64,000 bases of DNA from positions 1-64,000 of the forward strand of contig JAKVBQ010000011.1 in the NCBI GenBank assembly GCA_022447205.1. The letters run 5' to 3'. The DNA comes from Phycisphaerales bacterium. GTDB lineage: Bacteria > Planctomycetota > Phycisphaerae > Phycisphaerales > SM1A02. The translations under genes and the position numbers were made by a program. The stretch's first letter is position 1. Each line of letters opens with the position of its first letter. Positions 56,992 through 59,884 of the stretch are shown piece after piece. Below the pieces are notes generated by a model, which had not been told where the DNA came from, made no database searches, and was given only the letters and a program-made list of their open reading frames with translations.

Positions 56992-57293
56992 CTCGGGTTG
57001 AACAAGACTGGAATCCTGCTTATCCGACCAAGGGTGAGGTCATCGCCGGCCAGGATTTGGATTCCGTACGTTCTTTTGTTTTACGTTTCCTCGCCAAAGT
57101 CTTGCGGTCCCTCGAATAGGGATTAACCTCGTCTGTGCTCCGTGTGCTCCCTCTTAAGCACATGGGCTGGCTCAGTTGAGAGAGAGCCAAGCATTTTGAG
57201 GGTCCGGGCAAAGGGTGTCGACGTCGATCGGATCGATGGCGGCAGGCTTTGGATATCCATCACATAGTGCTTATTAGAGAAGGAGACTCCCTC
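56992..57293. other. AT-richer intergenic region before the PEP-CTERM genes
   Basis: No gene on either strand. The stretch is visibly richer in A/T than its surroundings and should hold the promoter of the PEP-CTERM genes, but no convincing -35/-10 pair was found (TTGCGG/TAACCT near 57110-57135 is weak). AGAAGGAG at 57278-57285 is a good ribosome-binding site for the next gene. Confidence 0.4.
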
Positions 57294-57830
57294 ATGACAA
57301 AAGCACACACTCTTCTTGGCGTCGCTGCTGCTGCTTCACTCGCAGCTGTTGCTAGCGCTGACTTGAACATGACCCTTGACGGCTTCACTGCGGCTGGTGC
57401 ACAGTTCGGCATGTACCAATCATACGCTTTGGATGCAGACCATGGCTTCTTGGAATCGGTCAACGGCGACTTCATGCTGGACGCCGATGGCGAGAACTGG
57501 ACTTGGTGCGACGACCTCTGCGTCCTGATCGCCAACGAAGATCTCTCCGACCTCCACGTCCAGATCGGTGGCTACAGCGACTTCGGTGCAACCAACCGTT
57601 TCACGTGGGAATTCGGATCCTCGGGTGATGCAGGCACCGCTGGTGGCGGCAACATCGACGTCGGCGGCATCGACTGCACCGGCTACTACGTCTGGATCGG
57701 CAACGGCTACTCCAGCGGTGGCGCAGGTACCTGGTCCGGCAACATCGACCTCATCGGTACAATCCCGGCTCCTGGTGCACTCGCACTTCTCGGTCTTGGT
57801 GGCCTCGTTGCTCGTCGTCGTCGCGCCTGA
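57294..57830 (+). CDS. PEP-CTERM-type secreted protein 1
   Basis: A 178-residue secreted protein: signal peptide (TLLGVAAAASLAAVASA), a Gly/Asp/Trp-rich beta-sandwich-like body, and a C-terminal sorting tail IPAPGALALLGLGGLVARRRRA (motif, hydrophobic helix, arginine cluster). Such tails direct exosortase-dependent anchoring, often of extracellular-matrix or storage proteins. In Phycisphaerales the motif is often PAPGA rather than PEP. A good AGAAGGAG site precedes the ATG. No exosortase gene is in the window. Together with the next gene it probably forms a unit. Confidence 0.9.
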   Translation: MTKAHTLLGVAAAASLAAVASADLNMTLDGFTAAGAQFGMYQSYALDADHGFLESVNGDFMLDADGENWTWCDDLCVLIANEDLSDLHVQIGGYSDFGATNRFTWEFGSSGDAGTAGGGNIDVGGIDCTGYYVWIGNGYSSGGAGTWSGNIDLIGTIPAPGALALLGLGGLVARRRRA

Positions 57831-57925: not shown

Positions 57926-58567
57926 ATGAAGAATGTTCTCTTCGCTGCTTCAGCAGCAATGATCCTGGCCGGTTCTGCGACTGCAGACTTCACCGGTTTC
58001 CAGGGCGACGTTTCCACGTACGATGATGGCGCGACCACCTGGGAAGTCATCGACATGTACGCTGAATTCGACGGCGCTCAGGCAGTGCTCAACGTTTTCA
58101 ACGCTGATATCGTTGGCGACTTCAACCACAACGACCTGGCTGATGCTCAGGGTGGTTCCTGGAAGCCCAGCTTCTCATTCGAGGTTCCCACCGTCTACGA
58201 TCCCATGCGTGACTCCTACGTCACCATCGGTTACGGCGTTGGTGCAATGGCTGCGCTCAACCAGACCGCTCTTGACCCGAACTTCGGTACGGGTCTCGGC
58301 AGCAGCATCCCGACGGGTGCAGGTTGGTTCAACCTGGCTCCTGACAACCCCCAGTACGCCACAGATGATGGCACCGGTACTTACCGGCTCCACATCGGTC
58401 AGTTCGTTTCTACGGACATGTCCAACTTCAGCTTCACCGCTGACATCGGCTTCAACGATGGCCCCGGTACCGAAGTTTCCTTCGGTAACGGCAGCTGGGT
58501 CCCGGCTCCTGGCGCGCTCGCGCTCCTCGGGCTTAGCGGGATCGTCGCTCGTCGTCGTCGCGCCTGA
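57926..58567 (+). CDS. PEP-CTERM-type secreted protein 2
   Basis: A 213-residue secreted protein with a signal peptide (KNVLFAASAAMILAGSATA), a beta-rich body (DMYAEFDGAQAVLNVFNADI; GDFNHNDLADAQGG) and the tail VPAPGALALLGLSGIVARRRRA. The tail and its DNA sequence are nearly the same as in the upstream gene, while the bodies are not obviously related. It lies 95 bases downstream of protein 1 and is followed by a very strong terminator. Role unknown; likely surface or matrix protein. Confidence 0.9.
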   Translation: MKNVLFAASAAMILAGSATADFTGFQGDVSTYDDGATTWEVIDMYAEFDGAQAVLNVFNADIVGDFNHNDLADAQGGSWKPSFSFEVPTVYDPMRDSYVTIGYGVGAMAALNQTALDPNFGTGLGSSIPTGAGWFNLAPDNPQYATDDGTGTYRLHIGQFVSTDMSNFSFTADIGFNDGPGTEVSFGNGSWVPAPGALALLGLSGIVARRRRA

Positions 58568-58610: not shown

Positions 58611-58652
58611 ACAAGTGCCCTCCAGCTTCGGCTGGAGGGCACTTGTCTTTTT
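58611..58652 (+). terminator. Strong intrinsic terminator after the PEP-CTERM genes
   Basis: A perfect 16-bp stem (58611-58626 with 58631-58646) closed by a TTCG tetraloop, followed by CTTTTTC. Confidence 0.95.
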
Positions 58653-58879: not shown

Positions 58880-59812
58880 ATGATTGATGAAGGCCTCGAT
58901 ACCGTCATTGGTGCAACGATCAAGACTGCGGACCCCGCAGCAGCAGCAGCTCGTGCCTCGGAAGGCAAGTCCCTCGAGGAGGCTGGAGATCGCGTGGGTG
59001 CGATCGCCGCATACCGTGAAGCCGCGGAGCTCGGCAGTGACGTGCAGGCGCTCTTCCGTCTTGCATGGCTGCTGGACCAGCATGGCGAGGAGGACGAGGC
59101 GCTCGCAGCGTACGAGCGTTGCTGCCAGGTGGATGGACTTCCCCCGGTCAATGCGATGATCAACATCGCCGTGATCTACGAGGATCGTGGCGAGATTTCG
59201 AACGCCCAGCGATGCCTTCGCAAGGTCCTTGACAGCGATCCGAACAACCAGAGGGCCCGGCTCTTCATGAAGGATGTGCTCGCGTCCGAGGACATGTACT
59301 ACGACGAGGAGCATGATCGCAACCTCGCCAAGCGCAGTGCACTTCTCGACACGCCGGTGACCGATTTCGAGTTGAGCGTCAGGGCTCGAAACTGTCTCAA
59401 GAAGATGAAGATTCGGACGCTTGGTGATCTGCTGAAGATCTCCGAGGCCGAACTGCTCTCCTACAAGAACTTCGGTGAGACCTCCCTCGTCGAGATCAAG
59501 AACATGCTGTCCTCCAAGGGACTTCGCCTCGGTCAGGGTCTCGAAGGCCGTTACAGCCAGGCTCGCAAGGAGATCTACGACGATCTCCGCGGCAAGGCGC
59601 CGGACCACGTGCTCAACAAGCCGGTTTCCGTGCTCGAGCTTTCGGTCCGTGCACGAAAGGCACTTCAGCAGCTTGGGATCCAGACCATCGGGGATCTGGC
59701 TTCGAGGACAGAGGCCGAACTGATGGGCGTCAAGAACTTCGGCCAGACCAGCCTCGTCGAGATCACCCAGAAGCTGAACCAGTACAACCTGGAGCTTCGG
59801 TCCCTCGACTAG
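58880..59812 (+). CDS. TPR protein with two RNA polymerase alpha-CTD-like domains
   Basis: A 310-residue cytosolic protein. Residues 25-145 are TPR repeats (GAIAAYREAAELG, EALAAYERCCQ, NAQRCLRKVLDSDPNN). Residues of about 165-232 match the C-terminal domain of RNA polymerase alpha: VTDFELSVRARNCLK keeps the positions of E. coli Asp259, Glu261, Arg265, Asn268 and Cys269, and YKNFGETSLVEIK keeps Gly296 and Ser299. A second copy (VSVLELSVRARKALQ, VKNFGQTSLVEI) keeps the Arg but has Lys at the Asn268 position. Alpha-CTD binds UP-element DNA and activators, so this may recruit or tether transcription machinery. Similar proteins occur in planctomycetes; function untested to my knowledge. Confidence 0.9.
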   Translation: MIDEGLDTVIGATIKTADPAAAAARASEGKSLEEAGDRVGAIAAYREAAELGSDVQALFRLAWLLDQHGEEDEALAAYERCCQVDGLPPVNAMINIAVIYEDRGEISNAQRCLRKVLDSDPNNQRARLFMKDVLASEDMYYDEEHDRNLAKRSALLDTPVTDFELSVRARNCLKKMKIRTLGDLLKISEAELLSYKNFGETSLVEIKNMLSSKGLRLGQGLEGRYSQARKEIYDDLRGKAPDHVLNKPVSVLELSVRARKALQQLGIQTIGDLASRTEAELMGVKNFGQTSLVEITQKLNQYNLELRSLD

Positions 59813-59884
59813 GCCGAGTTGATTTTCTGCATCGGTCGATCCGGCAGAGTTCCTTCGACCGGTTTTCCGCCTACCATGAAGGCA

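Follow-up and report, generated by a model that had tools for sequence, protein, structure and literature searches.

The window analysed is a 64,000-nucleotide stretch of a Phycisphaerales genome, and the features discussed here are collected in Table 1. The open reading frame of the central gene begins with ATG, fills the tabulated interval exactly and encodes a protein of 310 amino acids (P0001; referred to below as the TPR-CTD protein). The strong hairpin resembling an intrinsic terminator stands between this gene and an upstream gene for a secreted protein; over the whole region, terminator-like sites showed no excess relative to shuffled sequences. The reading frame of the SpoIID-domain gene is open from a TTG at 59819, with an ATG at about 59877 as its likely start. 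Upstream, positions 57249–57830 and 57926–58567 encode adjacent secreted-type proteins with near-identical tails (PAPGALALLGL.G.VARRRRA) that resemble a PEP-CTERM sorting signal.

Table 1. Features of the TPR-CTD locus (positions in the window).
Feature	Position	Strand	Basis
Intrinsic-terminator-like hairpin, 16 pairs then a T-run	58611..58646	+	Pattern match
TPR/tandem α-CTD protein gene (P0001)	58880..59812	+	ORF list, Pfam, orthologues
TPR solenoid, about residues 19–139, about three TPR units	58934..59296	+	Pfam, predicted helices 19–34 to 124–139
Helical connector into CTD1, conserved; residues 140–155, MYYDE motif region	59297..59344	+	Orthologues, model
CTD1, residues 156–220; DNA-contact and σ-facing residues kept	59345..59539	+	Pfam, residues, fold
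Inter-CTD linker, residues 221–244, 24 amino acids	59540..59611	+	Model, orthologues
CTD2, residues 245–309; Arg265, Asn294, Gly296, Ser299, Glu302; Lys at 268	59612..59806	+	Pfam, residues
SpoIID-domain gene, downstream of the P0001 gene	59877..61288	+	ORF list, neighbourhoods

The N-terminal part of P0001 was modelled as a TPR array, its best structural matches were TPR arrays, and the Pfam models TPR_2, TPR_8, TPR_1, TPR_6 and TPR_14 all scored above their cut-offs. In a fold search with the whole protein the best 50 matches listed were TPR proteins. The solenoid is longer in most other families of Planctomycetota than in P0001. The Pfam model RNA_pol_A_CTD (PF03118) matched two further stretches, CTD1 and CTD2, with 141.3 bits against a gathering cut-off of 23.8 (E = 7.6e-42). 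Across the genome of the window (3.25 Mb, 95% complete) PF03118 was found in three places only: the two CTDs of P0001 (77 and 71 bits) and the CTD of rpoA on another contig (71.6 bits). As both modules rival the CTD of the genome's own rpoA, a chance match is excluded for either. Searches of the PDB with phmmer returned the E. coli α-CTD for CTD1 (1lb2_B, E = 3.7e-14) and other bacterial α subunits for CTD2 (residues 242–307 of the protein, about 7e-10). The model of the CTD part has a mean pLDDT of 82, and all 50 Foldseek matches listed for it were RNA polymerase α chains or complexes containing α. Superposition of the CTD1 model on the E. coli α-CTD gave a Z-score of 14.1 and 0.8 Å over 67 residues at 49% identity, and the chains that it matched include α-CTDs solved with DNA, CAP and σ region 4 (1lb2, 3n97, 9zum); this structural alignment covers CTD1 alone, CTD2 being assigned by sequence (71 bits). 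The linker between the two modules measures 18–37 amino acids in orthologues (median 24), and the relative placement of the domains is uncertain in the models (pTM 0.48 and 0.44).

An earlier note on this DNA had described a TPR protein carrying two α-CTD modules, and had proposed fold prediction, alignment with RpoA and inspection of the genome's rpoA for retention of its CTD. The domain searches and the superposition bear out that description, and the genome's own RpoA is a full-length protein of 333 amino acids with its CTD present. The note had also considered an HhH-type fold unrelated to the α-CTD; this is rejected, since each of the 50 Foldseek matches listed contains RNA polymerase α. 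Its functional suggestions, that the protein could bind UP elements, compete with α or bridge polymerase and a partner, are kept below as possible modes of action.

In the E. coli α-CTD, Arg265 and its neighbours touch UP-element DNA, and Asp259 and Glu261 face σ region 4. The 265 determinant for DNA was taken as Arg265, Asn268, Cys269, Gly296, Lys298, Ser299 and Glu302 (E. coli numbering, used throughout). CTD1 of P0001 reads VTDFELSVRARNC...KNFGETS and has Asp259, Glu261, Arg265, Asn268, Cys269, Asn294, Gly296, Ser299 and Glu302; the determinant is thus complete except for Lys298, which is replaced by Thr. Thr also occupies position 298 in 90% of the sampled RpoA CTDs of Planctomycetota, and CTD1 orthologues have Thr or Ser there. 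In CTD2 the determinant is partial, with Arg265, Gly296, Ser299 and Glu302 retained but Lys268 and Ala269 present, and Val stands in place of Asp259. The assignment agrees with the earlier note, which had listed Arg265, Asn268, Gly296, Ser299 and the Asp259/Glu261 face for the first module and Arg265 with Lys at 268 for the second; the absence of Asp259 from CTD2 is added here.

Both residue patterns hold in 135 orthologues, a set weighted towards Phycisphaerales. In CTD1, Arg265, Asn294, Gly296 and Glu302 are each invariant (100%), followed by Ser299 (98%), Cys269 (95%) and Asn268 (74%), and the σ-facing residues are kept in 97% (Asp259) and 92% (Glu261). Nearly all of the CTD1 modules lacking Asn268 have Thr268, and those with Thr268 all come from relatives within the window's own order (one Phycisphaerales lineage). 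In CTD2, Arg265 and Glu302 are at 100% and Asn294, Gly296 and Ser299 at 97% each; position 268 is Lys or Arg in 89%, and 259/261 are not kept. The fixed positions of CTD1 that are unlike RpoA are Phe260, Arg267, Met273, Leu278 and Glu297. Because the conserved Glu297, which adjoins the DNA-contact loop, reverses the charge of the Lys in RpoA, and because Met273 replaces the usual residue, the surface of CTD1 is not simply that of RpoA. The free CTDs are slightly basic (mean charge +0.95 and +1.27), compared with −0.68 for RpoA CTDs.

Mean pairwise identities were compared in eight matched genomes. CTD1 reached 73%, against 61% for the RpoA CTD and 59% for the RpoA N-terminal domain, which in this small sample points to a stronger constraint on CTD1 than on the polymerase subunit; CTD2 and the TPR part of the P0001-type protein gave 43 and 44%, respectively. 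A tree of the CTDs was calculated with FastTree on about 65 residues, domains so short that resolution is limited. Clade supports were 0.95 for CTD1, 0.90 for CTD1 with CTD2 and 0.96 for their separation from all RpoA CTDs, with a weak 0.53 for the CTD2 clade. This topology fits a single ancestor for the two modules, separate from the RpoA CTDs, which would have been duplicated early.

The closest relatives of P0001 are found in Phycisphaerales (Planctomycetota) and are up to 80% identical. A match of the P0001 type was present in 197 of 199 genomes sampled from Planctomycetota, and a strong one (E of about 1e-44 or better) in 187 of the 199. Among good-quality genomes (completeness of 90% or more, contamination of 5% or less) the strong match was found in 112 of 114 (about 98%), and weak or missing matches fell mostly in incomplete genomes. 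Most Planctomycetota genomes have exactly three α-CTDs, a number consistent with a single domain in RpoA plus the pair in the TPR-CTD protein. Four records that bear the titles Limnohabitans, Cyanobacteria, Leptolyngbya and Dehalococcoidia (L129, L150, L167 and L181) contain TPR-CTD genes of the planctomycete kind and likewise show three CTDs; they are probably bins of planctomycetes under a wrong label. With regard to an origin from mobile elements, none of the plasmid or phage records covered 80% of P0001, and the annotated matches were mostly ordinary rpoA.

We propose, with a probability of roughly 0.5, that the TPR-CTD protein is an accessory factor found throughout Planctomycetota, in which a TPR docking scaffold carries two polymerase-free α-CTDs that act at A+T-rich promoter DNA. 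Judging from its residues and fold, CTD1 would use Arg265, Asn268, Asn294, Gly296 and Ser299 to enter the minor groove of UP-element-like DNA rich in A+T. Its Asp259 and Glu261, the two residues that suggest this contact, could allow it to sit beside σ region 4 at the −35 element. CTD2, with Lys or Arg at 268 and without the 261 face, may add DNA affinity on its tether of about 24 amino acids, and the two modules in one chain would mimic the two CTDs of an α dimer. The TPR part would hold a partner protein or RNA polymerase, and promoter output would be set in this way. Free α-CTDs next to σ parts do occur, as two large proteins of the phylum (L227, G019:C19; L229, G234:C889) join two or three α-CTDs to a following σ-region-4-like domain. 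Counted against the promoter reading are Glu297 and Met273 in CTD1, Thr268 in one Phycisphaerales lineage, the inter-domain arrangement, which the models leave uncertain, and the fact that the conserved neighbour ruvA is a recombination rather than a transcription gene. More tentatively, the protein may be a core transcription factor of Planctomycetota, its trans-acting α-CTD pair serving UP elements and σ region 4 independently of RpoA; planctomycete promoters would then be read both by the polymerase and by a separate, TPR-controlled α-CTD donor.

The main rival to the promoter reading, which we regard as unlikely, is a recombination or nucleoid role with RuvAB, in which the CTDs would serve as minor-groove/HhH binders of DNA in general, with the TPR part coupling DNA to the branch-migration machinery RuvAB or to the nucleoid. 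It draws on gene order: in 20 of the 39 loci sampled, representing 13 families, ruvA immediately follows the TPR-CTD gene in the same orientation, mostly after a gap of 12–100 bp, and the identities of the ruvA and ruvB neighbours were confirmed by NCBIfam. Several of the 39 loci have the fuller order TPR-CTD, ruvA, ruvB, SpoIID, tgt, yajC, and in about ten murA, ffh and rpsP lie divergently upstream. As tgt, yajC and SpoIID belong to the same cluster, however, the linkage to ruvA need not mean a shared function. It is also absent from about half of the loci and from the window genome, where the SpoIID-like neighbour alone remains of the wider cluster, and a recombination role leaves the retention of the σ-facing Asp259 and Glu261 unexplained. 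A stand-in for RuvC is rejected: Pfam found no RuvC domain in P0001, RuvC is encoded elsewhere in the window genome, 87 of 99 genomes have a RuvC, and none was seen beside the TPR-CTD gene in the sampled neighbourhoods.

Less likely again is a protein-only adaptor or decoy, the CTDs of which would dock activators, NusA or σ factors and titrate or reroute them without DNA. Activators and Spx are known to dock on the α-CTD (matched structures 1lb2, 1z3e and 8igr), and Phe260, Arg267, Met273 and Glu297, fixed in CTD1 and unlike RpoA, would suit a protein-binding face of its own; yet few positions in either CTD are better conserved than those that contact DNA, with an Arg265 that never varies in either and that a decoy would not need. 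We consider it improbable that the protein is a direct competitor of the RpoA CTD at UP elements, repressing in general instead of recruiting. Its DNA-contact residues are the same as those of RpoA and, being without the α N-terminal domain, it could sit on UP elements and bring no polymerase there, but a pure competitor needs neither the σ-facing residues nor the TPR domain, and both are conserved. The decoy and competitor models thus fit less well than promoter action, since conservation extends to DNA-contact residues, σ-facing residues and the TPR part alike. A mis-annotated or degenerate second RpoA is refuted to near certainty, as the rpoA models that are the best NCBIfam matches of P0001 fall far below their cut-offs (136.6 versus 302 bits) and are confined to the CTDs, Pfam and NCBIfam detect no α N-terminal domain in it, and a complete RpoA is encoded elsewhere in the genome.

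The α-CTD is familiar chiefly as the polymerase tail at which promoters and activators meet the enzyme. In this case another pair, free of the polymerase, is retained across a phylum, the first copy of which is held more tightly than the polymerase's own in the genomes compared. If the protein does act on promoters, it would be an undescribed general factor in bacteria in which transcription has been little studied. No dedicated Pfam or NCBIfam model for the TPR plus tandem α-CTD architecture was matched, so automatic annotation may label the protein 'RNA polymerase subunit alpha' and thereby hide it. The component domains are already known; a description of a TPR protein with tandem α-CTDs, or of this phylum-wide and tightly conserved architecture, was not found in the literature searched. 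Passages from the main text of a P. limnophila transposon study (PMC10632474) do not name the gene.

Single modules were also seen in other settings: an α-CTD-like one within a protein in which PurS-like and PurL parts of phosphoribosylformylglycinamidine synthase are joined (L226, G063:C145), and α-CTDs in a 137-amino-acid open frame with nothing else recognizable (L225, G121:C4) and in a 266-amino-acid hypothetical protein of the Sphingosinicella plasmid p1 (L198, 2950–3750), directly after an annotated RNA polymerase factor σ-32. Among known systems, the RNA polymerase α-CTD (PF03118; E. coli RpoA 250–320) shares with P0001 the CTD1 fold at about 45–50% identity, the DNA-contact residues and Asp259/Glu261. 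The CTDs of P0001 differ from it in lacking the α N-terminal domain, in standing in tandem and joined to TPRs, and in the signatures Glu297, Met273, Phe260 and Arg267 of CTD1 and Lys/Arg268 of CTD2. Short, hypothetical free α-CTD proteins (NCBIfam NF005841, PRK07758-like) likewise place the domain outside the polymerase, but their model has 95 positions and no TPRs, and P0001 scores 48 against its cut-off of 115. The BREX kinase PglW is another non-polymerase protein with an embedded α-CTD-like domain; it is, however, a kinase-based defence protein without the TPR-CTD-CTD layout, and its NCBIfam model gave P0001 44.7 against 990 bits, through the CTDs only, which places P0001 outside PglW. Proteins that join α-CTDs to a σ-region-4-like part (L227, L229 and MzaA-type σ factors) resemble P0001 in having several α-CTDs per chain, whereas those of the L227/L229 type carry the σ-4-like part instead of TPRs and occur in few of the genomes looked at.
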